Assembly (NCBI GenBank): GCA_001184205.1 | Contig: LBMP01000001.1 | Coordinates: forward strand, 1,268,001 to 1,332,000 | Origin: Desulfocarbo indianensis | GTDB lineage: Bacteria > Desulfobacterota > Desulfarculia > Desulfarculales > Desulfarculaceae | DNA: 64,000 bases | Direction: 5' to 3' | Shown: in pieces, positions 3,220-31,136 of the stretch | Layout: the number at the start of each line of letters is the position of its first letter | Position numbering within the stretch: the first letter of the stretch is position 1 | Translations under genes and position numbers: made by a program | The notes under the pieces: model-generated | Database searches by the model: none | The model's input: only the letters and a program-made list of their open reading frames with translations | Told to the model about the DNA's origin: nothing

Positions 3220-5331
3220 CTAATAGCGCCAGGTAAAGCTGACGCCCACCATCCTGGGGGGGGCATCGTAGCCCATGTAAGCGCCGCCCCAATCGTATTT
3301 CTTGGTGAAGTAGTCTTGGTCAAACAGGTTTTTGGCCCAGAGGATTATGTCGTAATGTTCGCTCTCATAACCCAAGCGCAGGTTGACCAGATTGTAGGCG
3401 TCGGTCTTGACCTGGTTGGTGGCGTCGTTGTAATAATCGCCCACCCCCAAAAAGTCCACCCTGCCCATGAAGCCAATGGGGTGACGGTATTGCAGGCCCA
3501 GGTTGTAGGTGTACTTGGGCACGTCGGGCAGGTCCTTGCCGTTGTAGTCGACCTGAATCACTTGGCCCGAGGAGTCAGTCTCGGTGGCCAGCCAGTCGTC
3601 GATCTTGGCCTCGGTGTAGCCAAAGCCGGCGAACACCTCGAAACCCTTGGCAATCCTGGCCTTGACCTCCAGCTCAAAGCCCTGGGAATGGGCCTCGGCC
3701 GCGTTGCGCAGCTTGTTGTTCATGATCTCCGGGCTGTACTCCAGCACCTGCTTATCCTGCATGTCGATGTAAAAAACGCTGGCGTTCAAGATCACGCGGT
3801 CGTCCCAAAAAGAGCTCTTAAGACCCAACTCGTAGTTCCAGGTGAATTCCGGCTCATAGGAGAACTGTTCCGGACAGGTGTTGTTCCAAATACGGTAGTC
3901 GCCGCTCAAATAGCCCTTGGAGGCCGAGGCATAGGCCATGACCTGGGGGGTGATATCATAGGCCGCCTCCAGGCGGGGCAGGAGCTCTTGGCTGTCCATA
4001 TCCTTGTCCCAACTCAGCGTGTCCTGCTGGCCGACCGCGGTGAAGGATTGGTCTCCGCTCTGATCGAGCCTTTCCAGGCGCGCTCCGCCGGTGAGATGCA
4101 ATTTGTCGAACATGGTGTAGGTGACCTGGCCGAACAGGGCGGTGCCCAGGATGGTTATGTCTGATTTGGTCAACCCGTAATAGTTGCTGAAAAATGACAC
4201 CTCATCCTTTTCACGAAACGCATAGAGTCCCAGCAGCCACTTCCAGGGGCCTTGGTCCCGAGCCGGCGAGGAAAACCGGAACTCCTGATTGAGCAGGGTG
4301 TTTTTATAGTCTGCCCTCCCATAGGCGTGGGGCAGGGGCGTCATGTCAGACTCCCTGGCGCTATCGGCATGCCAGTAGCGCCGGCCGCTGACCGAAACCA
4401 TGTCAAACCATTTTCCCTGGTATTTCACGCGCAGGTTGAGCCCGTTGCCGTCCTGCTTGAAGTAGGTTTCGGGGTAGTCGTAGTTGACCTCATTGCGGTC
4501 GGTCGCATATGATCCCGAGGTGAAACGATAAAAGCCGTCACCGTCGTCGGTGTCCAAGATGTCGGCCACAAGGGCGATGTCCCAGGCCCGGGCCGGCGTC
4601 CAACGCAGGGTGCCCCTCCCGTTGAACCGGTTCATTTGCCCGATGCTCTCGTCATCATTGTAGATGTTTTTCATATACCCGTCGGAGGACTCAAAGCGGC
4701 CGGCCAGACCCAAAAAAAGCTGTTGGTTGACAATGGGTCCGGATGCATCGGCCACCATCAAATAAGAAGGCACCGAGCCATGGCCGGTGTCGAAAAAGCC
4801 AAGTTCGCCGTGAACCTTGGCCCGCATGGTGTTGCCCGGCTGTCTGGTGATGATCTTGATCAAGCCGGACTCGGTGTTGTGGCCGTAAGTGGTCCCCTGT
4901 GGCCCCCTGAGCACCTCCACCCGCTCCAAGTCGTAAAGATCCCAATTGAACATGTAATTAAAAGGCAGGGGCACGTCATCTATGTAAACTCCGGCCGGGC
5001 TTCTAAGGGTGTCGCTGGTGGGGGCCACGCCGCGTATGACCAGGTTGTTTTCATAGCTGTTTCTTTGCAGAGAAACATTGGGCGCAAACCGGGCCATTTC
5101 GTCTACGTTGCGAACGCCGCGGTCTTCAAGCTGCTCCCCGGTGAAGGCATCCATGCTCACCGGGACCTTTTGAATGTTTGCCTCCCGTTTCTGGGCGGTC
5201 ACGGTTAAATGCTCCAAGCTGGCGGCATCTGATTGCCCTTCAGGTTCGGCCCGCGCCTCGCTATGCGCCAACAGCACGAAGCCCGCCAGGGCCGCGCATA
5301 AAAACGCCTTGACCTTCAGTGTGCTACCCAT
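3220..5331 (-). CDS. TonB-dependent outer-membrane receptor, siderophore (FyuA/FptA-like) type
   Basis: 703 residues: signal peptide (about 1-28, cleavage after SEARA), plug domain (about 45-165, with VTAQKRE, RGVAPTSD and the VLRGPQGTTYG motif), then a 22-strand barrel ending in aromatic FTWRY, the usual outer-membrane terminal signature. Such receptors use TonB/ExbBD energy to import iron chelates or corrinoids. The gene follows a same-strand AraC regulator and precedes a methyltransferase and MFS importer, the arrangement of yersiniabactin/pyochelin uptake. A cobalamin riboswitch lies further upstream on the same strand, so a corrinoid substrate cannot be excluded. GGGGAGAG precedes the ATG. 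Confidence 0.9.
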   Translation of the reverse strand: MGSTLKVKAFLCAALAGFVLLAHSEARAEPEGQSDAASLEHLTVTAQKREANIQKVPVSMDAFTGEQLEDRGVRNVDEMARFAPNVSLQRNSYENNLVIRGVAPTSDTLRSPAGVYIDDVPLPFNYMFNWDLYDLERVEVLRGPQGTTYGHNTESGLIKIITRQPGNTMRAKVHGELGFFDTGHGSVPSYLMVADASGPIVNQQLFLGLAGRFESSDGYMKNIYNDDESIGQMNRFNGRGTLRWTPARAWDIALVADILDTDDGDGFYRFTSGSYATDRNEVNYDYPETYFKQDGNGLNLRVKYQGKWFDMVSVSGRRYWHADSARESDMTPLPHAYGRADYKNTLLNQEFRFSSPARDQGPWKWLLGLYAFREKDEVSFFSNYYGLTKSDITILGTALFGQVTYTMFDKLHLTGGARLERLDQSGDQSFTAVGQQDTLSWDKDMDSQELLPRLEAAYDITPQVMAYASASKGYLSGDYRIWNNTCPEQFSYEPEFTWNYELGLKSSFWDDRVILNASVFYIDMQDKQVLEYSPEIMNNKLRNAAEAHSQGFELEVKARIAKGFEVFAGFGYTEAKIDDWLATETDSSGQVIQVDYNGKDLPDVPKYTYNLGLQYRHPIGFMGRVDFLGVGDYYNDATNQVKTDAYNLVNLRLGYESEHYDIILWAKNLFDQDYFTKKYDWGGAYMGYDAPPRMVGVSFTWRY

Positions 5332-6707: not shown

Positions 6708-6867
6708 TGTAAGCCATTGCTCCACTCCCTTGCTTCGGTGTGTTAAAAACAGACAAGCGATTAAAACAAAGCGCTCAGGAAAGGCGTAAAAAACTCTCTC
6801 TTAAACCGCACTCGGTTTTTCTGCTCCAGTCATATCCCCTAGGCATGCCCCCGCGTCGAGGTTTTCG

Positions 6868-7027
6868 ACGAACAGGACTTCTGGCTTTCGGATCGACCTC
6901 CAGCCGCGGCTTCCAACCACTCCCATGGGTGGCAGCGGCCATTACGCGGCCTTTCCCCCGATCACTGTGGGAGGGCCACACCGGCTTTTCACCGGCCTCC
7001 CTATTAAACCCTGCGGGCATCCACCGG
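6868..7027 (-). ncRNA. Cobalamin riboswitch, divergent
   Basis: Read on the minus strand, the order of conserved blocks matches cobalamin riboswitches: GGTG/GCCCGC near the 5' end, TTTAATAGGGAGG, CCGGTGAAAAGCCGG, a block ending CAGTGATCGG, GCCGCTGCC (usual GCCACTG), a TTGGAAG block, GATCCGAAAGCCAG and the B12 box AGCCAGAAGTCCTG. The central CCCCGCAACTG element is altered and the whole is somewhat short, so binding may be weakened. The next gene on this strand is the AraC regulator, whose start is about 260 nt further. The riboswitch lies immediately beside an IS element on its upstream side. Confidence 0.78.
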
Positions 7028-7467
7028 AAAAATATACGGCAAGCTCTTAGCATCGTTTCGATAACATGTCAACCAGTCTGCCCTTTGCCCAAAGCATTGC
7101 ATAAGTCCCTGACACAGGGATCGTCTTCTGGCCTCAGCTATCTTCTGTGAATCGGCCCTTTTCATTGGGAAAAGATTTTAATTGGGCTGCTTGCGAGGCG
7201 TTAAGGCTAAGGGTTGTCGTCAAAGACACTGTTTGCCCTGCTGCACTCTTGAGATAAACAGTGTCTAAGCCTAGAAGTGGTACATTGGTTTGGTGACAGA
7301 TCAGTGGACGTAGTATTGAACCGCTAACACTTGCAACTCCTGTCTTCACAAAAAGGCTAAATTGGCCAGTTAAGCCTGTCGGCTATAGTTTTATTTGAGA
7401 ATGTTAAAGTTTCCCCGGTTTTGTGGACACCTTGAAAAGCATGATATGAGATGCTTGGAGGTGTTCA

Positions 7468-16926: not shown

Positions 16927-18399
16927 TTGTTATCCAAAAGATGGCTCGCCTCGCTGACCGTTGCCGCGCTGGCGGCGGCTGGCGCGGTCGCGCTACCCGC
17001 GGCGGCCGCCCAGAAGGAAGCTGACAGGGCCTTGATGAAGGCTCCTGCCGCCGACTGCGCGGTGGTGGCCGATTTCGCGGGCATAAAGAACGTGACCACC
17101 AAAAGCTTCATTCGCAAGATTACCTTGAACGAGGGCTTGGTGATACGCCAGAGCCGCATCGAAGGCGGCAAGATCATCATTCCGCCCTCCGGTCTCTACT
17201 ACAGCACCCGCACCCCCAAAAGCGGCGTGCTGCAGGGCGACCAGGTGCTGATCCTGGGCAAGCTCTACCATTTCGTGGACCAGGCCACCAAGCTGGACGT
17301 CATCAAAGACGTCTGGGTGGACAAGGGCGGGGCCGCGCCCTTTGGCGACGGCACCAAGGTGCTTGAGCTTTCCAGCCTGCAAATGGGAGCCAACGGCTTC
17401 CCCGTGGCCAATGCCACCTTCAAGATTCTCAAGCAGTCCGGCAACTACTACGGGGTCACCTTTCCGGTGGCCACCAGCGAGCTGTTCACCGACATCGCCT
17501 CCGGCGCCCTGAACAAGGGCGCGGGCCGCGAGACCGGCTCCTACCTGCCCGAGCAGAAGGGCCAGGACTTTGAGACCGAGTATTACGCCAGTTCGGTGGC
17601 GGTCAGCGGTCAGACCTACCTGACGGCGGCCGAGGTGGGCCCCAAGGGTGCCAAGATCGTGGAGTTCGGCACCGGCGCCTTGCGCTTTATGCTGCTGACC
17701 GAGAAGGACCCCAAGCAGGCCCTCATGGGCGCCGGCGACGCCATTTCCTGCGGCGGATTCACCGTCAAGGTCACCGAGGTGGGCTCCGACTACGCCAAGG
17801 TGGAACTTAAGCACCAGGACAGCGGCAAGACCTGGACCAAGCAACTGGGGCCCTTGACCGCCGAGGTGATGAAGTACATGCCGGTGGACGAGGAGGAGCG
17901 CGGTCGCTTCATCCTGCGCGACGACCAGGACCGGGCCCAGGTGCAGATGAACCTTTACAAGGCCGGCGGTCCTTTCAAGGCCGGCAAAGTGGAGATCGCC
18001 CTGTACACCGACCTCATGAAGTTGGGCAACCCCAGCCGGTGGGCGGCGGACGATCGCTTCCTCTACCGCCCGGATACTTGAAGCACCTGCTCCATGTTCA
18101 TCGAGGGCATGCTTGAGAATGACAAGCAGATCGTCCTCGATGCAGCCAACAACGTGTTTGTTGGTCCCAACGGCTACTTCAAGATCGTTATCGACAAGTT
18201 TGACGGCAAAACCATCCAGGCCTGGCACGTTGAAGACGCCCAGGGCAACTCCACCGGCAACCTGGCGCGCCGCAGCGGCGGCAAGCATATCGACCTGCTG
18301 GTGAACAAGGATTGCCGCACGGTTTCTCATTTCCTCAAGCGCATCGCGCTGAAGGTGATCGCCGAGCAGCAAGACCTCCTAAGGAAGTTGGAGAAGTAA
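16927..18399 (+). CDS. Secreted protein with in-frame TGA, probable selenoprotein (490 aa, Sec385)
   Basis: Starts at TTG with AGGAGG 6-7 nt upstream; the nearby ATG at 16922 is in another frame. Signal peptide about 1-29, then a 460-residue mature protein without known domains. TGA at 18079-18081 interrupts the frame, but the same frame continues for 106 codons with unchanged codon bias and protein-like sequence. The ATG at 18094 after the stop has no ribosome site. The junction reads DT-U-STC-SM, a U-x-x-C pair like redox CxxC. A hairpin CATGTTC-ATCGA-GGGCATG follows, its loop 18 nt after the TGA. A nonsense mutation of a Cys or Trp codon is the alternative. Confidence 0.72.
18093..18111 (+). 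promoter_or_regulatory. SECIS-like hairpin after the TGA at 18079
   Basis: Seven-pair stem CATGTTC/GGGCATG (two G-U pairs) with loop ATCGA, extended by CTC/GAG across a three-base bulge. The loop begins 18 nt after the TGA, within the spacing of bacterial SECIS elements. The loop has a single G rather than the common GG, so this is the weakest of the four. Confidence 0.45.
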
Positions 18400-20259: not shown

Positions 20260-20296
20260 TTTGCCCGCCCATGAGGGCGATAGTGGTCCTTACACG

Positions 20297-21412
20297 ATGA
20301 AAGCTTCCCTGGCGGAACCGCGCGGCCCGGACACGGGCCGCTCCACGGCCGACGTGATAGCGCGCTATCTGTCGGCGCTCAAACGCCGCTATCTCTTAAT
20401 GGGGGCGTTGACCGTCCTGCTCATCGCGCTGGCCCTGCAGGCGGTGGCCCTGGGCGCCTATGATCTCTCGCCGCTGAAAGTGCTGTGGGCTCTGTTGGGC
20501 CGGGCGGAAGGCCCCCAGGCGGCGGTGATCTGGAACATACGCCTGCCCCGCATAGTGGCGGCGGTGGTCACGGGCTGGGGGCTGGGGCTTTCCGGCCTGG
20601 CCACCCAGACCCTGCTGCGCAATCCCCTGGCCTCGCCGTTCACCCTGGGCATAAGCCACGGCGCCATCTTCGGCGCGGCGTTCGCCATCGTGTTTCTGGG
20701 GGCGGGCGCCGTCAGCGCCAGCGCCTTGCACACGGCCGGGCCCGCCGATTTCATGTTCAGCGGCCTGTACGCCATCACCGGCCTGGCCTTCGCCGGGGCC
20801 ATGAGCGCCACGGTGGTGATCCTGATCCTGGCCCGCCTGCGCAAAATGAGCCCCTCGGCGGTGATCCTGGCCGGGGTGGCCATGTCGTCGCTTTTCATTT
20901 CCGGCACCATCTTGATTCAGTATTTCGCCACCGAGATAGAGATAGCCTCCGTGGTTTTCTGGACCTTTGGCGACGTGGCGCGTTCCAGCTGGGGCGAAAT
21001 ACTGCTTCTCGGCCTGGTCACCCTGGCGGTGACCCTTTATTTCCTGCGGCGCAGGTGGGAGCTTAACGCCTTGCTGGCCGGCGACGACAGCGCCCAGGGC
21101 CTGGGCGTGAGCGTCACCCGCCTGCGGCTCACCGGCATGTTTCTGGCGACCCTGGCCACCGCCCTGGCCAACGCCTTTCACGGGGTCATCGCCTTCCTGG
21201 GCCTCTTGGCTCCCCATATCGCGCGCCGCATGGTGGGAGGCGACCACCGCTTCCTGGTGCCCCTGTCCGGCCTGGTGGGAGCGCTCCTTTTGCTGGCGGC
21301 CGATACCCTGGGCCGGCTGGCGGTGGGCTCGGGCACCCTGCCGGTGGGGGTGCTCACCTCCTTCATGGGCGCGCCCCTGTTTCTCTATCTGCTCTTGAAG
21401 GACCGGCCATGA
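20297..21412 (+). CDS. FecCD-type ABC transporter permease (metal chelate/corrinoid)
   Basis: 371 residues from the chosen ATG, with about ten transmembrane segments and BtuC/FecCD signatures (RLPRIVAAVVTGWGLGLSG, NPLASPFTLGIS, GVIAFLGLLAPHIARRMVGGDHR). It forms the inner-membrane channel for siderophores, haem, corrinoids or other metal chelates. An unusual N-terminal cytoplasmic tail of about 35 residues precedes the first segment; an in-frame ATG at 20261 would lengthen it. The ribosome site is weak. It overlaps the ATPase gene by 4 nt. Confidence 0.93.
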   Translation: MKASLAEPRGPDTGRSTADVIARYLSALKRRYLLMGALTVLLIALALQAVALGAYDLSPLKVLWALLGRAEGPQAAVIWNIRLPRIVAAVVTGWGLGLSGLATQTLLRNPLASPFTLGISHGAIFGAAFAIVFLGAGAVSASALHTAGPADFMFSGLYAITGLAFAGAMSATVVILILARLRKMSPSAVILAGVAMSSLFISGTILIQYFATEIEIASVVFWTFGDVARSSWGEILLLGLVTLAVTLYFLRRRWELNALLAGDDSAQGLGVSVTRLRLTGMFLATLATALANAFHGVIAFLGLLAPHIARRMVGGDHRFLVPLSGLVGALLLLAADTLGRLAVGSGTLPVGVLTSFMGAPLFLYLLLKDRP

Positions 21413-22236
21413 CCCTGGAAACGCGCGGCCTGCATTTTTCCTATAACGGCCGGCCGGTGCTGGCGGGCCTGAGCCTTTCCCTGGCCAGGGGGGAGAGCGT
21501 CGGCATCCTGGGCGTCAACGGGGCCGGCAAGTCCACCCTCCTGCGCTGCCTCAACCGCAACCTGAAGCCCCAAAAGGGAGCCGTGCTGGTGGAGGGCCGC
21601 AACCTGGCGGATTTGAGCGGCGAAGAGATCGCCAGGCTGTTGGGCTACGTGCCGCAGAACCGGTTCACCGATCCCCTGAACGTTTTCGATTCGGTGTTGC
21701 TGGGCCGCAAGCCCCACATCAAATGGCAGGCCAGCGGCCGCGATCTCCAGGTGGTGGCGGAGGTGCTGGCCCAGATGGGGCTGGAGAAATTGGCCATGCG
21801 CCCGGTGGCCAGCCTCAGCGGCGGCGAGGCCCAAAAGGTGGTCATCGCCAGGGCCCTGGCCCAGGAGCCCCGCATGCTGCTCTTGGACGAGCCCACCAGC
21901 AATCTGGACCTGCGCAATCAATTGGAGCTGATGCGGCTTTTGGGCCGCGTGATGAAAGACAAGGGAATAGGCGCCGCCGTTTGCCTGCACGACATCAACC
22001 TGGCCCTGCGCTACATGACACGGCTGGTTCTGCTCAAGGAGGGCGGGATCAAGGCCATACTGACGCCGGAGCAATTGTCGCCGGAGCTGATAAGCGAGGT
22101 TTACGGCGTGGAGGTGATTCTGGCCCAGGTGGCGGGGCATCGCGTGGTGATCCCCCAGGAGGCGCGCGGCGAGCCAGCCGAGGGCGGGTTGGACGCCAAA
22201 CTTGACAGGGAGACGGTAGGACATGACTCGAATTAG
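21409..22236 (+). CDS. FecE/BtuD-type ABC transporter ATP-binding protein
   Basis: 275 residues with all ATPase motifs: Walker A GVNGAGKST (about 38), Q-loop VPQN, signature LSGGE, Walker B LLLDEPTSNLD and switch His CLHD. It powers the adjacent permease. ATGA overlap with the permease, 14-nt overlap with the binding protein gene. Confidence 0.96.
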   Translation: MTLETRGLHFSYNGRPVLAGLSLSLARGESVGILGVNGAGKSTLLRCLNRNLKPQKGAVLVEGRNLADLSGEEIARLLGYVPQNRFTDPLNVFDSVLLGRKPHIKWQASGRDLQVVAEVLAQMGLEKLAMRPVASLSGGEAQKVVIARALAQEPRMLLLDEPTSNLDLRNQLELMRLLGRVMKDKGIGAAVCLHDINLALRYMTRLVLLKEGGIKAILTPEQLSPELISEVYGVEVILAQVAGHRVVIPQEARGEPAEGGLDAKLDRETVGHDSN

Positions 22237-23332
22237 GATTTTTTCAGCCGGCGCGCTGGCGGCGTTGGCGTTGATCATATGCCTGGCCGGTGGGGCGCCG
22301 GCCGACGATCTCATGCGGATTCGCGACATGACGGGACGCTCGCTGACGGTGCCCCGCCAGCCGGACAGGGTCGTTTGCCTGGGGCCGGGTTGCCTGCGCC
22401 TCTTGGCGTATTTGCAAGCCACCAAAGAACTGGCGGGCATAGAGGAAATGGAAAAGCGCTTTCCCACCGGCCGCCCCTATTACATGGCTCATCCCGAATT
22501 GGGCGGCTTGCCCACCATGACCCCCGGCGGGGTGAGTGGCATAAACAAGAAGCCCAACCTGGAGGGGGTGCTCAAGGTCAGGCCCCAGGTGATCTTCGCC
22601 ACCTACATGCACGCGGCCACGGCCGAGGAAGTGCAAAGGCTGCTGGGGATTCCGGTGGTGGCGCTCTCCTATGGGCCCTTGGCCGGTTTTGATGCCAAGG
22701 CGGTCTACGGCTCCCTGCGTCTGGCCGGCCGCATCATGGGCCAAGAAAAAAGGGCCGAGGCGGTCATCGCTTATCTGGAAGCCGCCCAGCGGGATTTGCA
22801 GGAACGGGCCCGCGGAGCCGCGGAAAAGCCCCGCGCCTACGTGGGCGGCCTGGGATTCAAAGGGGCCCACGGCATAGAGAGCAGCGATACGCAATACCTG
22901 CCTTTCCGCTGGCTGGGCGTGGAGAACGTGGCCAAGGGGGAGGGCCGCAGGACGCAGATATTTATGAGTAAGGAAGTTCTGCTCCGCCTGGACCCTGAAG
23001 TGATTTTCCTGGACGGCGGCGGCTTGGCCCTGGTGACGGCTGACTACGCCAAGAAGCCGGAATATTACAGCCAGCTTTCCGCGTTCAAAATGGGCAAGGT
23101 GTTCCTGCTGCATCCCTTTAATTGGTACACCACCAACCTGGGCACCGCCCTGGCCGACGCCTATGCCATCGGCAAGATTCTCTATCCCCAGCGCTTCGCC
23201 GACATCGACCCGGCCCGCAAGGCCGACGCCATATACGATTTCCTGGTGGGCAAGCCGGTCTACCGGGAGATGAAAGGCATATACGGCCCCTTGGGAGCCG
23301 CGCCGCCCTTCAGGGGAGGTGACAGGCCATGA
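22223..23332 (+). CDS. Periplasmic metal-chelate binding protein (FecB/BtuF family)
   Basis: 369 residues: signal peptide (about 1-29), then a two-lobed class III binding protein starting MRIRDMTGRSLTVPRQPDRVVCLGP in blocks typical of the family. It collects the ligand from the outer-membrane receptor and passes it to the ABC permease. The distinctive IESSDTQYLPFRWLGVEN segment is seen in FmdE-linked relatives from sulfate reducers (from memory). The substrate is unassigned. Translationally coupled to genes on both sides. Confidence 0.92.
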   Translation: MTRIRIFSAGALAALALIICLAGGAPADDLMRIRDMTGRSLTVPRQPDRVVCLGPGCLRLLAYLQATKELAGIEEMEKRFPTGRPYYMAHPELGGLPTMTPGGVSGINKKPNLEGVLKVRPQVIFATYMHAATAEEVQRLLGIPVVALSYGPLAGFDAKAVYGSLRLAGRIMGQEKRAEAVIAYLEAAQRDLQERARGAAEKPRAYVGGLGFKGAHGIESSDTQYLPFRWLGVENVAKGEGRRTQIFMSKEVLLRLDPEVIFLDGGGLALVTADYAKKPEYYSQLSAFKMGKVFLLHPFNWYTTNLGTALADAYAIGKILYPQRFADIDPARKADAIYDFLVGKPVYREMKGIYGPLGAAPPFRGGDRP

Positions 23333-23964: not shown

Positions 23965-24579
23965 ATGTCCGGTTGTCGGATACCCGCGCAAAAAATCGAA
24001 CAGACCGTGGAGTTCCACGGCCATTGGTGCCCCGGCCTGGCCATAGGCATCAGAGCCAGCGAATATGTGCTGAACAACCTGGGCCGCGCCACGGACGAGG
24101 ATATCGTGGCCGTGGTGGAAACCGACATGTGCGGCGTAGACGCCATCCAGGTGCTGACCGGCTGCACCTTCGGCAAGGGCAACCTGCTGTACTCGGATCA
24201 GGGCAAGATGGCCTTCAGCTTTTATCATCGGGGGGACGGCAAGGGCGTGCGCCTGGTTTTCAAGTCGGAAAGGTTCTGGGAGGAGGCGGAAGGCTTTTTC
24301 GAGCTAACCCGCAAATGGCTTTCGGGCCAGGCCGCGCCGGAGGAAACCGAGAAGGTGCTGCGCATGCGGGAGGAACGCGCGCAGTACATAATGGCCGCTC
24401 CCTTTGAGGAGCTTTTCGCCGTGAAGGAACCCGCCAGGCCCATGCCCCGGCCGGCCCGCATCCTGCAAAGCCTCACCTGCGAGGCCTGCGGCGAGAGCGT
24501 GATGGAATCGCGCAGCCGCCGGCTGGAGGGGCGCACCCTGTGCCTGGCTTGCTTCGAGGCGCAGGACAAATGGCATTGA
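23965..24579 (+). CDS. FmdE-family protein with C-terminal zinc ribbon
   Basis: 204 residues. N-terminal FmdE domain (about 1-130) with FHGHWCPGLAIG, DMCGVDAIQ and TGCTFGKGN motifs, whose His/Cys residues bind metal. C-terminal four-Cys zinc ribbon (CEACGES..CLACFE, about 171-199). FmdE was named for co-occurrence with molybdenum formylmethanofuran dehydrogenase genes, but its function is unknown. No signal peptide, so cytoplasmic. It ends the tightly packed ABC operon, suggesting a metal chaperone or sensor for the imported metal. Confidence 0.92.
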   Translation: MSGCRIPAQKIEQTVEFHGHWCPGLAIGIRASEYVLNNLGRATDEDIVAVVETDMCGVDAIQVLTGCTFGKGNLLYSDQGKMAFSFYHRGDGKGVRLVFKSERFWEEAEGFFELTRKWLSGQAAPEETEKVLRMREERAQYIMAAPFEELFAVKEPARPMPRPARILQSLTCEACGESVMESRSRRLEGRTLCLACFEAQDKWH

Positions 24580-24715
24580 TCCCCCTGCCGTCATTGGGCG
24601 GCGGGGGCGATTCACGATAAGCGTATAGTGGAGGACGAGAGAGTGGCGTTGCTTTTCCTTATTTGATGACCATCTTGGGGGCGCGTCGCCAGGCAAGGTG
24701 GAACGGAGGCTGCGC

Positions 24716-25729
24716 ATGCGGAAAACGAGCAAAGTTGTTCTGGTGTTGTTGGGATTAATCATCTTGTCGGCGCAAGCCGTCATGGCCTTTGATTTGACAA
24801 GCCTGCTGAACGAGGGCATGGGGCGGCTGGAGGCGAAAAAGGGCAGCCAGAACCTCTGCCTCATCACCAACGCCCCTTACGTGCGTTTCAACGGCCAAAG
24901 CGCGGTGCGCTGCCTGGATGCCTGCAGCGAGCTCACCGGCTGCACCCTGGGGTCGGAGAGGCTCCTTTTTGTGCAGCGGCCCGTGGACGCACCCCTGGTG
25001 GCGGCGCTTTATGACCGTTCGCGCCAGCGGCTCTGGGCCCTGCGCTGGGACGGCCAGCAAGCCCAGAGCCGGCTTTGGGAGGTGGGCGACGCGGCCCTGG
25101 CCCAGGAAGCGACCTGGCAGGCCATGCAAAAGAGCCCCCTGGGGCGCGACGCCTTTTCGCTGGTCTCCATCGCCCGCGCCTGGGGCGGCGGCGCGCCCTA
25201 TGACCTGCTCAAATGCGCCGAATTCCACGACCACCTTTGTCCCGGCGTCACCTCCGGCTATTTGCTGGCGCGCTTCATTTTGCAGCGCTATCCGCTCCGG
25301 CCCGGCCAGAGATATTATTACGTGGGCAGCCCGGTCTGGTGCAAGGAAGACGCGGTTCAGGTGCTCCTGAACCTGACGCCGGGCAAGCGGGGGATGATCG
25401 TCAGGCCCTTGAATCAGGAGCAGAAGGAGGCGCTGCCCGATAAAACGCTGGGCGGTCTGTTCCTGCGGTGGGACGCCAAGGCCCAAAAAGGCCGCGCGCT
25501 GGCCTTGAGCTTTGATTGGCAAAAGGCCCGCGGCCTGGCCCGGCTGGGCAAGGAGAAAAAGCGCGACGACGGGGTGCGGCTCCTCCTGGCCCTGCTGCCG
25601 GTTCTCGACCGGCCCCAGGAGCTGGTGAGCGTGTGGAAGGAAAGCGATTTGACGCCGGCGCAATTCCAGGCGCTGATGCAAACCGGCGTCGACCCCTATA
25701 AGCAAATGGGATTCACGGACAAGCCCTGA
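24716..25729 (+). CDS. Exported FmdE-domain protein
   Basis: 337 residues: signal peptide (about 1-23, ending QAVMA), a variable domain with several Cys (SQNLCLITN, CLDACSELTGCTLGS), and a C-terminal FmdE-like domain (CAEFHDHLCPGVTSGY, then VWCKEDAVQ, about 165-230). The HxHxCPG motif matches the cytoplasmic FmdE protein just upstream. It may be its periplasmic counterpart, binding metal before import. GGAGG precedes the chosen ATG. Confidence 0.85.
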   Translation: MRKTSKVVLVLLGLIILSAQAVMAFDLTSLLNEGMGRLEAKKGSQNLCLITNAPYVRFNGQSAVRCLDACSELTGCTLGSERLLFVQRPVDAPLVAALYDRSRQRLWALRWDGQQAQSRLWEVGDAALAQEATWQAMQKSPLGRDAFSLVSIARAWGGGAPYDLLKCAEFHDHLCPGVTSGYLLARFILQRYPLRPGQRYYYVGSPVWCKEDAVQVLLNLTPGKRGMIVRPLNQEQKEALPDKTLGGLFLRWDAKAQKGRALALSFDWQKARGLARLGKEKKRDDGVRLLLALLPVLDRPQELVSVWKESDLTPAQFQALMQTGVDPYKQMGFTDKP

Positions 25730-25794: not shown

Positions 25795-26310
25795 TCAGGG
25801 CTTGGCTTTTGGGGGCGCGTTGGGATTATAGCTGGGATCGGGGCCCAGAATGGCCGCCAGGGGATTGGTGCCCAGGTTCACCAGGCGGGCGTATTGATCC
25901 GCGCCGTCCAACTTTATCTGACGCCAGATGGAGACGAACTTTTCGGTCTCGTGCAGCCGCTTCATGAAAAACTTGTTGTAGGCCTGGTGCAGCCAGGCCT
26001 GGCCGCTGCCGAAAAGCGAGGTCCCGGTGATCTGGATGCCGGCCTGATTGCGCAAGGGCTCCAAAAGGGTGCCGGATATAATGGGCATCTCCAAGTCTTC
26101 AGGCGGCACCACGGACTGGCCCAGGGCCTCGTTGGCGGCTCCGGGGAAGCTGGCGGTCACCTGGACCTCTTCCTTCTTGTGGGTTCCCGCCGTTTTGCCG
26201 CTGTCTTGGTTGCTTGGGGACGCCTTTTCTTGGGCCGGGGCCGGTATGGCAAACCCCGCCAGCAAACAAAACGCCAGGGCCAATCCGCCCAGCCAGGTTT
26301 TGCGGTTCAT
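25795..26310 (-). CDS. Secreted protein, possible isolated TonB-plug-like domain
   Basis: 171 residues: signal peptide (about 1-26, ending APAQE). The segment KEEVQVTASFPG through PLRNQAGIQITGTSLFGSGQ loosely follows the pattern of a TonB-receptor plug start (VTAS.., then a PGVQV-like motif), but no barrel follows: the gene ends with TGA TAA. The C-terminal third is unrelated and ends in a proline-rich tail. Either a stand-alone plug-like protein or chance resemblance. GGGAGG precedes the ATG. It lies between the ABC/FmdE operon and the TonB receptor of the same island. Confidence 0.6.
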   Translation of the reverse strand: MNRKTWLGGLALAFCLLAGFAIPAPAQEKASPSNQDSGKTAGTHKKEEVQVTASFPGAANEALGQSVVPPEDLEMPIISGTLLEPLRNQAGIQITGTSLFGSGQAWLHQAYNKFFMKRLHETEKFVSIWRQIKLDGADQYARLVNLGTNPLAAILGPDPSYNPNAPPKAKP

Positions 26311-28025: not shown

Positions 28026-28042
28026 AGGAGGGGAAGAGGAAC

Positions 28043-30154
28043 ATGCTTGCGAAATATTCACGAAGACGGCCCGCCAGGCTGCTGGGTTGCTTGCTGGCCG
28101 GCTGTCTGGTCCTGGCGGCGCCCCTGGCCGGCTCCGCCTCGGAGCCGGCGCGGGAAAAACCGCCGCAGGCCCTGAAACTGGACGAGATCACGGTGATCTC
28201 CACCCAGCCCGGCGTGGAGATCGCCCCGGACAAGACCGTTATCAAGATGGACGAGTTCCAAAGGCCCGCCGGGGTGCGGACCCTCACCGACGTGCTCACC
28301 GAAATCGGCGGGGTGGACGTGCAGCGCATCAACCCGCTCATGGCCAGCCCCGGCGACGAGGTGTCCATCCGCGGGCTCAACGAAGGCCGCATGGTCATCG
28401 AGATCGACGGCCGCCGGGTGAACCACACCGGCCACTCCGGCCGCTACATCGTGGACTGGTCCACCCTGAACATGGACGACGTGGAGCGCATCGAAATCAT
28501 CCGGGGAGGCCATTCGGTGCTGCATCCCTTCGCCATCGGCGGGGTGATAAACATCATCACCAAAAAAGGCAAGAGGACCGAAGACGCCAAGCCGGACATG
28601 AAGGTGGAGGGCGGCTACGGCAGCTTTGACACCCGCTTCGGCGCGGCCAGCGTCAACGGCGGGGCGGGCAAGTTCATCGGCTACAACATCTCGGCCTCCG
28701 AGGGCGAGACCGACGGCTACCTGCGCAACAACTACCAGAAGAATAGAAGCATCAACGGGCATCTGAGCTTTTATCTGCCCAAGGACATGACGCTCAGCTT
28801 CGGGGTCAAGCATTCCAACGTGGAGTACGGCTATCCCGTGCTCAACGATCCTTCCCGAGCCGACTGGGACCCCAGCTATCCCACCTTCAAGGGCACCGCC
28901 GACCAACTCAGGCACATTCCCCCCACCACCCAGCTCCCCGGCGGCGCCACGCCTTACTGGAGCCGGGACACCACCTACCTGGACTTGATCTTCACCGCCC
29001 CGGTCTTCGGCGGCGAGTTCAAGCTGCACGGCTTTTCCACCGAGGGCAAACGCTGGAACCATTATTACCGGGGCGAGACCTTCAACCAGGATTTCTCCGA
29101 CGACCTCACCAGGGGCGTGATCGCCCAGATGAGCGATCTCAAGATCGGCGATCATCACAGCCTGACCTTCGGCGCGGAATACCAGGAATTGGGCATGCCC
29201 AATCAGGAGAACCAGACCATCGGCTGGCCCCGCATAGAAAACGCGGTCTACCGGGTCACCTCGTTTTACATCCAGGACGTGATGCGCTACGGCCGCTGGA
29301 CCGTCACGCCGGGCGTGCGCTACTACAACGTGGAAATGGACACCTATTACGCCTGGTTTGAGCAGGGCAAGGATGCGGCGGATTGGCCGGTGGAGGGTAA
29401 GAAGCAAAGCGAGGACGATTTCTACCCCAGCCTGAAGGTCGATTATCAGGCTTCGCCGGACACGGCCCTGTACGCGGCGGTGAGCCGCTCCTACCGATTG
29501 CCCTGCCCGTGAGACTACTATTGGTGGGCGCGGTGCGCCCGCGAGGACAATCAGGAATTAAGGCCCGAATCGGCCTGGGAATACGAACTGGGCATCATCC
29601 AGGACTGGCGACCGGTGACCTATAGGGCCGCCGTCTTTTACTATGACATCAAGGACTTCATCAACGACAACGGCATCACGTCCCCCGGCAGCGGCCTGGG
29701 TTCCGACTGCCTCTACAACATTCCCCACGTAAAACTTTACGGCCTGGAGCTGGAGACCTCCTTGCGCATGGGCAAGCGTTTCAGCGCCACGGTTTCCTAT
29801 GTCTACCAGCAGGTGGACGCGGACCAAACCCAATACGACGAGGACTGGACTTATTACCTGCCCGAGCTGCTGCCCAAGCACAAGGTCAAGTTCCTGGGCC
29901 GCTACGAAATGTGGAAGGACGGGTTCCTGCAAGTTTCCGGCCGCCTGGTGGGCGAGCGCCAGGCGCAGAAGGGCGAAACCCTGGACGCCTACACGGTGCT
30001 GGACGCGGGGCTTGAGCAACGCTTCCATCTCGGCGGCACGGAATTCTCCGCCGGGGCCTATGTCAACAACCTTTTGGGCGAGGAGTATCAGGAGCAAGCC
30101 GGCTATCAGATGCCCCGCCAGGTCTACGGCCTGCGCCTGAGCGCCAAATTCTAA
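28043..30154 (+). CDS. TonB-dependent receptor with in-frame TGA, probable selenoprotein (703 aa, Sec490)
   Basis: Signal peptide about 1-34, plug about 45-165 (DEITVISTQPGV, VSIRGLNEGRMVIEIDGRR, VERIEIIRGGHSVLHPFAIGG), then barrel. TGA at 29510-29512 lies in YRLPCP-U-DYYWWARCAR. The same frame continues 213 codons through normal barrel sequence (WEYELGIIQDWRPVTYRAAV) to the aromatic end LRLSAKF at 30154, so receptor homology spans the TGA. A GGGCGC-GGT-GCGCCC hairpin starts 13 nt after it. Cys488, U490 and Cys496 cluster at a surface turn and could bind metal or do redox chemistry. The alternative is a single nonsense mutation. AGGAGGGG precedes the ATG. Confidence 0.8.
29526..29540 (+). promoter_or_regulatory. 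SECIS-like hairpin after the TGA at 29510
   Basis: GGGCGC-GGT-GCGCCC, a perfect six-pair stem with a GGU loop. The loop starts 19 nt after the TGA. Bacterial SECIS elements typically place a loop beginning with G/GG about 16-37 nt downstream. The stem is the same as that behind the CC/Se gene at 40 kb. Confidence 0.7.
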
Positions 30155-30164
30155 GGAAAGGCTG

Positions 30165-31136
30165 ATGAGAAAAAGCAACGAGTATAAACGCAAGCGTTGG
30201 GGCGCGGCCGCCGGGGTGGTCCTGGCCATAGCGGCCCTATGCTGGATGATCGCGCCGCAGATGGCCGGCGCCTGGGGTAGGGGGGCGTTCTACGTGATCG
30301 GCACCGGCCCGGCCGGGCCCCAGACCGCCACCCTGCAAGCCTTGGAAACCATGAAGAAGATGGACGCCATCATCGCCGACGAAAGGCACGCCAAGCTTTT
30401 CGCCGACTACATCGGCAAGGCCCCGCTGCTCTTCGACCCCTGGAAGGGCCGCTGGGATTACAAGGGCAAGCCCTACAACAAGCTGAACCCAAAAGAGCTG
30501 GCCGAGTTCCAGGTGGAGCGTTTCAAGGGCCGCGACCGCAACGTGGCCCGGATCAAGGAGCTATTGGCCCAGGGCAAGAACGTGGGCCTCCTGGATTCGG
30601 GCAATCCCTGCCTGTTCGGGCCCAGCCACTGGTACGTGGAGCACTTGGATCCGGCCGACCTGGTGGTGATAGCCGGCATGGGCTGCGACGCGGCGGGCAT
30701 GGCCGCCCTGAAAAGAAGCGCCATCCCGGCCCACGGAGCCCGCTTCGTGGTGCAGACCGCGCCGTTTTTCCTGGCCGGGCGCGAATCGCCGGACATGAGC
30801 TTCGACCCCGATGATCCCAAGGCGGCTGAGGCCCTGGCCGATTTGGCCAAGCACGAGCACACCATGGTGCTCTACATGGCCCTCAAGGAGCCTGAAAAGC
30901 TGTTCAAGAGCCTGGGCCGCTTTCTGCCGGCCGACATGCCGGCGGCCTGCGTGTTCTGGGCGGGCTATCCGGAAAAGGAGCGGGTGGTGCGCGGCACGGT
31001 GGGCGATCTGGGCCCCAAGCTGGCCCAGGACCCGGAGCGCTTCATGGGGCTTTTGTTCATCGGCCGTTTTCTGGAGGGCAAGCCCTACGAAGCGGCCATG
31101 CGCCGCGGCCAGGCCAAGGGCGTGAAAAAGCAATAG
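30165..31136 (+). CDS. Membrane-anchored or exported tetrapyrrole (corrin/porphyrin) methylase-like protein
   Basis: 323 residues. A basic N-terminus and one hydrophobic segment (about 13-35, ending QMAGAW) act as a signal peptide or anchor. The rest is a TP_methylase domain: FYVIGTGPAGPQTATLQALE (as in CobA/CbiF-type enzymes), the LDSGNPCLFGPSHWYVE substrate/SAM loop and VVIAGMG. The family C-methylates uroporphyrinogen-derived rings using SAM in the cytoplasm, so export is puzzling; it may have been recruited to bind a tetrapyrrole. It starts 10 nt after the TonB receptor, hence same operon. Confidence 0.87.
   Translation: MRKSNEYKRKRWGAAAGVVLAIAALCWMIAPQMAGAWGRGAFYVIGTGPAGPQTATLQALETMKKMDAIIADERHAKLFADYIGKAPLLFDPWKGRWDYKGKPYNKLNPKELAEFQVERFKGRDRNVARIKELLAQGKNVGLLDSGNPCLFGPSHWYVEHLDPADLVVIAGMGCDAAGMAALKRSAIPAHGARFVVQTAPFFLAGRESPDMSFDPDDPKAAEALADLAKHEHTMVLYMALKEPEKLFKSLGRFLPADMPAACVFWAGYPEKERVVRGTVGDLGPKLAQDPERFMGLLFIGRFLEGKPYEAAMRRGQAKGVKKQ

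Follow-up and report, generated by a model that had tools for sequence, protein, structure and literature searches.

A TonB-dependent receptor of Desulfocarbo indianensis with a conserved in-frame TGA, very likely a selenocysteine codon

The genome of Desulfocarbo indianensis carries a gene for a TonB-dependent receptor whose reading frame is interrupted once, by a TGA at codon 490, and this UGA is very likely decoded as selenocysteine (Sec). Insertion of Sec is argued for by the recurrence of the UGA in related genomes, the invariant codons of the hairpin that follows it, the presence of the Sec machinery and the use of TGA as an ordinary stop. That the gene specifies a Sec-decoded TonB importer is, with the incorporation of Sec itself inferred, also highly probable. 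All coordinates count along the window, that is, the whole stretch of 64,000 nt that was analysed (contig LBMP01000001.1, positions 1,268,001-1,332,000, forward strand).

The receptor gene and the recurrence of its TGA

The features of the receptor gene are as follows.

28026..28042, +: ribosome-binding region AGGAGGGGAAGAGGAAC ahead of the ATG (sequence)
28043..30154, +: TonB-dependent receptor, predicted selenoprotein of the PCPU type, 703 aa with Sec at codon 490 (one-TGA frame, NF049947, Pfam Plug and TonB barrel)
29504..29506, +: Cys488, invariant (18/18)
29510..29512, +: in-frame TGA, predicted Sec490 (TGA in 18/18 aligned PCPU genes)
29513..29545, +: candidate bacterial SECIS region, stem GGGCGC/GCGCCC, loop GGU 19 nt past the TGA (fold, 13 members, invariant codons 496-497)
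29534..29536, +: Cys498, invariant (18/18)
29708..29710, +: Cys556, invariant (18/18), at the end of extracellular loop 8 in the model topology

A sequence-only reading of this DNA had proposed that the receptor is continuous through the TGA, and this was borne out. The frame starts with an ATG behind AGGAGG, ends with a TAA and is otherwise open; Pfam places the plug at residues 64-168 and the barrel at 192-677, the latter spanning the TGA, and the GC content by codon position is coding-like both 5′ and 3′ of it. The C-P-U context seen in that reading also stands, with the correction that the third Cys, placed there six residues on, lies eight residues past Sec, at C498.

The TGA occupies the position of codon 490 in all 19 related genomes that have the site, which belong to seven families of the phylum; two partial genes without the Sec site (L067 and L127) are outside this count. 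Among 98 related genomes, a search at the protein level found three other receptors with 62-78% identity and one TGA each, including that of Dethiosulfatarculus sandiegensis. Searching 395 genomes of the phylum with the family model gave ten matches above the cut-off, the window's own included, each with one TGA, and one additional fragment with a TGA, and six more TGA-bearing receptors came from a search of family f54. Around the TGA, the motif LPCPU-DYYWWARC is invariant across the relatives. Such recurrence in all 19 genomes excludes that the TGA is there by chance. The recurrence likewise refutes the explanation that the locus is a pseudogene, or that a sequencing or assembly error has made two fragments of it, which standard gene calling might suggest by splitting it into two open reading frames (28043-29512 and 29615-30154); with an identical TGA in 19 genomes, and with both flanks encoding barrel and showing a normal codon pattern, the probability of such an explanation is negligible.

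The earlier expectation that homologues would repeat the UGA, rather than carry an ordinary residue, therefore held for all close homologues, whereas the pairing of UGA with Cys, which that reading had proposed to look for, did not appear: neither Cys nor any other sense codon was found at position 490 among PCPU members in the 19 genomes with the site. Ordinary receptors that are more distant carry Pro in place of Sec and Thr in place of the first Cys (for example, LPTLPEYYW and MPTPPEHYW). No Cys-for-Sec homologue was found, the non-Sec receptors having Pro or other residues there, so that a catalytic or ligand role of the residue draws no support from substitutions. Cys homologues at the Sec position are the usual aid to the discovery of selenoproteins, and not a necessary feature of them.

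The hairpin after the TGA and the decoding of UGA

The hairpin GGGCGC-GGU-GCGCCC, noticed from the sequence, its loop placed 19 nt 3′ of the TGA, proved real: the region after the TGA, folded alone, reached −16.4 kcal/mol (z −2.45), and the hairpin formed in all 13 members that were folded. Two codons inside it, 496 and 497 (GCG CGG), are identical in the 18 aligned sequences. In this alignment only four of the 180 invariant degenerate columns use a single codon, and two of the four are these adjacent codons; codon 498 is TGC in 17 of the 18 sequences. An earlier set of 12 sequences had given GCG CGG TGC as three of the six single-codon columns among 205. As the constraint was noticed post hoc and the sequences are related, weight is put on its position rather than on a p-value: it falls exactly where a SECIS should sit, as expected of such an element. 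RNAalifold returned the inner hairpin together with a different lower stem only, and synonymous-codon constraint was used in place of covariation, which cannot be demonstrated because the hairpin columns hardly vary.

The sequence-only reading had made selenocysteine depend on the genome having selB and tRNA-Sec. Both are present together with selA and selD, all scoring above the curated cut-offs (tRNA-Sec, 75.4 bits; SelB, 393; SelA, 606; SelD, 376), and the SelD gene itself contains an in-frame TGA. The aromatic stretch DYYWW that adjoins the site could suggest that the UGA is read as tryptophan, or by simple readthrough, with no selenocysteine involved. This is very improbable: of 49 longer genes selected from the window, 18 end in TGA, no relative in the 18-sequence alignment has TGG at the site, the hairpin codons are constrained and the genome has the Sec machinery. 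Because TGA serves as an ordinary stop, and given its recurrence at codon 490 in 19 genomes, reassignment of the code was ruled out.

The window contains a second likely selenoprotein gene (16927-18399, +; TGA at 18079-18081), which encodes an exported-looking protein of 490 aa with the motif DTUSTC. The TGA, which is followed by a weak hairpin, recurs in four relatives with 67-74% identity, and in the distant homologues L137, L138 and L139 the site is occupied by Cys (DVCGHC), which makes a Sec/Cys pair. Since no Pfam or NCBIfam model matched the protein, it may represent an undescribed selenoprotein family. The sequence-only reading had counted two recognised selenoprotein genes 10 kb from the receptor; one TGA-joined gene is indeed there, though it matches no model and so does not count as recognised, and the GC-frame scan revealed no second.

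Related receptors and the structure model

The receptor is, by its sequence, a member of an already catalogued family of predicted selenoproteins. It matches the NCBIfam (20.0) model NF049947, 'TonB-dependent receptor, PCPU motif-type', with 1232.2 bits against a cut-off of 800 over positions 7-685 of 685; the motif is the same, no difference was found and the model states no function. Three sister models, NF049945 (FCYXU), NF049946 (CU) and NF049944 (PUIUD), likewise describe predicted Sec-containing TonB receptors with full-length similarity, and the Sec of the CU type aligns with Sec490. Their motifs differ from PCPU, the PUIUD type having two Sec residues, and the window protein scores below all three cut-offs. 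Further, a TonB receptor selenoprotein was predicted in Desulfosarcina sp. BuS5 by deep-Sep in 2025 (PMC12013277), also similar over the full length and with a different motif, and a 2026 review lists the FCYXU type (PMC13188914). The statement of the sequence-only reading that no Sec-containing TonB receptor had been described is thus outdated; no paper on the PCPU type was found in the literature searched.

Two observations were made on the sister types. Two PUIUD-type receptors (L125 and L126) have two TGA codons two residues apart. Beside CU-type Sec receptors there is a gene for an NMT1-type ABC binding protein that itself has an in-frame TGA (L112:10031-10990, −; L113:10125-11087, −; L111:4257-5363, +), in the context UDP[TV]ATML and followed by a stable hairpin; the protein does not reach the cut-off for SaoX. 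The joint occurrence, in one cluster, of a Sec receptor and a Sec binding protein suggests that selenium handles a single substrate twice.

Membership among BtuB or heme receptors was rejected, as the scores are far below the curated cut-offs (BtuB model TIGR01779, 79.9 bits against 599.7; heme-receptor model TIGR01785, 140.4 against 316.85). HemR-type heme receptors conserve FRAP and NPNL boxes together with His128 and His461 (PMC6449446). In an alignment with PhuR, the Sec segment of the window protein falls between YRLP, which corresponds to the FRAP box, and DNQELRPE, which corresponds to the NPNL box; the protein has no His aligned with those of the heme receptors PhuR, ChuA and HemR.

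The AlphaFold model (mean pLDDT 78, pTM 0.81) has a plug followed by 22 barrel strands, and its strand order places residues 485-509 in extracellular loop 7 and residues 543-556 in loop 8. The best structural match is BtuB (Z 34.5), which does not identify a corrinoid or any other substrate since FecA, OprC, PqqU and ChuA follow within about 2 and the fold is common to all TonB receptors. The only Cys/Sec residues invariant across 18 members are C488, U490, C498 and C556; all four fall in loops 7 and 8 of the model and may be clustered in space, the local confidence being moderate (block means from 60 to 77 near these positions). The placement in loops 7 and 8 agrees with the earlier proposal of a Sec/Cys cluster at the outer surface.

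A precedent for the holding of a bare soft metal by a TonB receptor is OprC, the copper importer of Pseudomonas, which uses thiol and thioether ligands (PMC8610252) and shares the fold (Z about 33). Its ligands C143, M147, H323 and M325 are located in the plug and the barrel wall and do not include Sec, in contrast to the Cys/Sec residues of loops 7 and 8, and equivalence with OprC was rejected because the ligand positions differ.

Gene neighbourhood and the role of the Sec/Cys cluster

The genes that may cooperate with the receptor are the following.

20261..21412, +: FecCD/BtuC-type ABC permease, possible inner-membrane partner (PF01032, 281 bits; in L102 and L103 a homologue lies downstream of the receptor gene)
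21409..22236, +: ATPase subunit of this ABC transporter
22223..23332, +: periplasmic binding protein belonging to this transporter (PF01497; a homologue with 55% identity lies near the receptor of L108)
30165..31136, +: apparently exported tetrapyrrole-methylase-fold protein, conserved operon partner, 10 nt after the receptor (PF00590, 94.5 bits)

The product of 30165-31136 has a charged start and a hydrophobic stretch, as signal peptides typically do. A tetrapyrrole-methylase-fold gene is found beside 17 of the 18 PCPU receptors with flanking sequence, the exception being genome G475 (L124), in which the reading frame of the receptor is itself broken. Relatives of this gene also adjoin non-Sec sister receptors (L003, in the same genome, and L021, L022 and L023), and the PUIUD receptor of L125 lies beside a similar one, which indicates that the pairing is older than Sec or independent of it. 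Because S-adenosylmethionine (SAM) is not expected outside the cytoplasm, the exported protein is supposed to bind a tetrapyrrole or a metal complex. Two such genes flank the PCPU receptor at two loci, where a second one lies 5′ of it (L105:6713-7645 and L109:4465-5349), and in several loci DUF4198 proteins come next. CU operons differ in that an NMT1-type ABC system and a double-cubane reductase-like protein replace the tetrapyrrole-methylase partner.

The FecCD-type ABC transporter, accompanied by a methyltransferase, lies upstream of the receptor in the window and downstream of it in L102 and L103; in most PCPU loci the ABC genes do not adjoin the receptor. In the window, two FmdE-domain proteins, possibly involved in metal handling, are encoded 3′ of the ABC and methyltransferase genes (23965-24579 and 24698-25729, +), the second with a signal-like stretch at its N terminus. 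A 171-aa protein without a Pfam match (25795-26310, −) is weakly similar to the start of FepA-type receptors and is perhaps a receptor remnant. Elsewhere in the window, a cobalamin riboswitch (6854-7039, −; 50.8 bits) has a TonB receptor gene (3220-5331) further downstream on the same strand.

In the mechanism that we propose, UGA490 would be decoded as Sec by means of the hairpin just 3′ of it, and the product would be a TonB-dependent outer-membrane importer exposing Sec490, Cys488, Cys498 and Cys556 in extracellular loops 7 and 8. At the cell surface, the resulting cluster of selenolate and thiolates would capture either a soft metal or, by way of its metal, a tetrapyrrole or corrinoid complex; the captured metal or complex would be imported by the action of TonB and handled onward by the exported tetrapyrrole-methylase-fold neighbour and a BtuCDF/FecCD-type ABC transporter. 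Direct ligation of the transported metal or metal-tetrapyrrole by Sec490 and the three Cys residues at the outer surface is the best functional reading, tentative as it is; the identity of the ligand and the role of the partner are likewise inferred.

The main rival, which seems possible but somewhat unlikely, is that the cluster is a redox switch or a (seleno)disulfide lock that gates or stabilises the receptor through loops 7 and 8 without contact with the substrate. The four invariant residues, an even number divided between two neighbouring loops, are consistent with it, and most uncharacterised selenoproteins are likely redox in function according to a recent review (PMC13188914). Against this, C-P-U followed by aromatic residues is not a typical CxxU redox motif, and a structural disulfide would probably not require the costly Sec. 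Direct capture of mercury or another toxic soft metal by the Sec/Cys residues, as proposed for other metal-linked selenoproteins such as the Sao system, was also considered, since the sister CU-type receptors adjoin SaoA/SaoP-like ABC genes and the Sec-containing NMT1-type binding protein. These ABC proteins, however, score below the cut-offs (SaoA, 266 against 360; SaoP, 166 against 295), PCPU loci do not have them and import of mercury would be odd with no detoxifying enzyme nearby, which makes this possibility quite improbable.

Selenocysteine, a rare and costly amino acid, would not be expected in a surface-exposed loop of an importer of the outer membrane. The existence of models for four sister receptor families that differ in motif suggests that selenium either entered the cell surface receptors of these bacteria on more than one occasion or diverged within them. 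With a conserved partner gene and four fixed residues to work on, the question of what is imported is directly testable. Although this kind of receptor was already catalogued, its biology is surprising and open to experiment: if direct ligation is true, it would, to our knowledge, be the first importer of the outer membrane to hold its substrate in this way, with an exported homologue of tetrapyrrole methylases turned into a binding protein.
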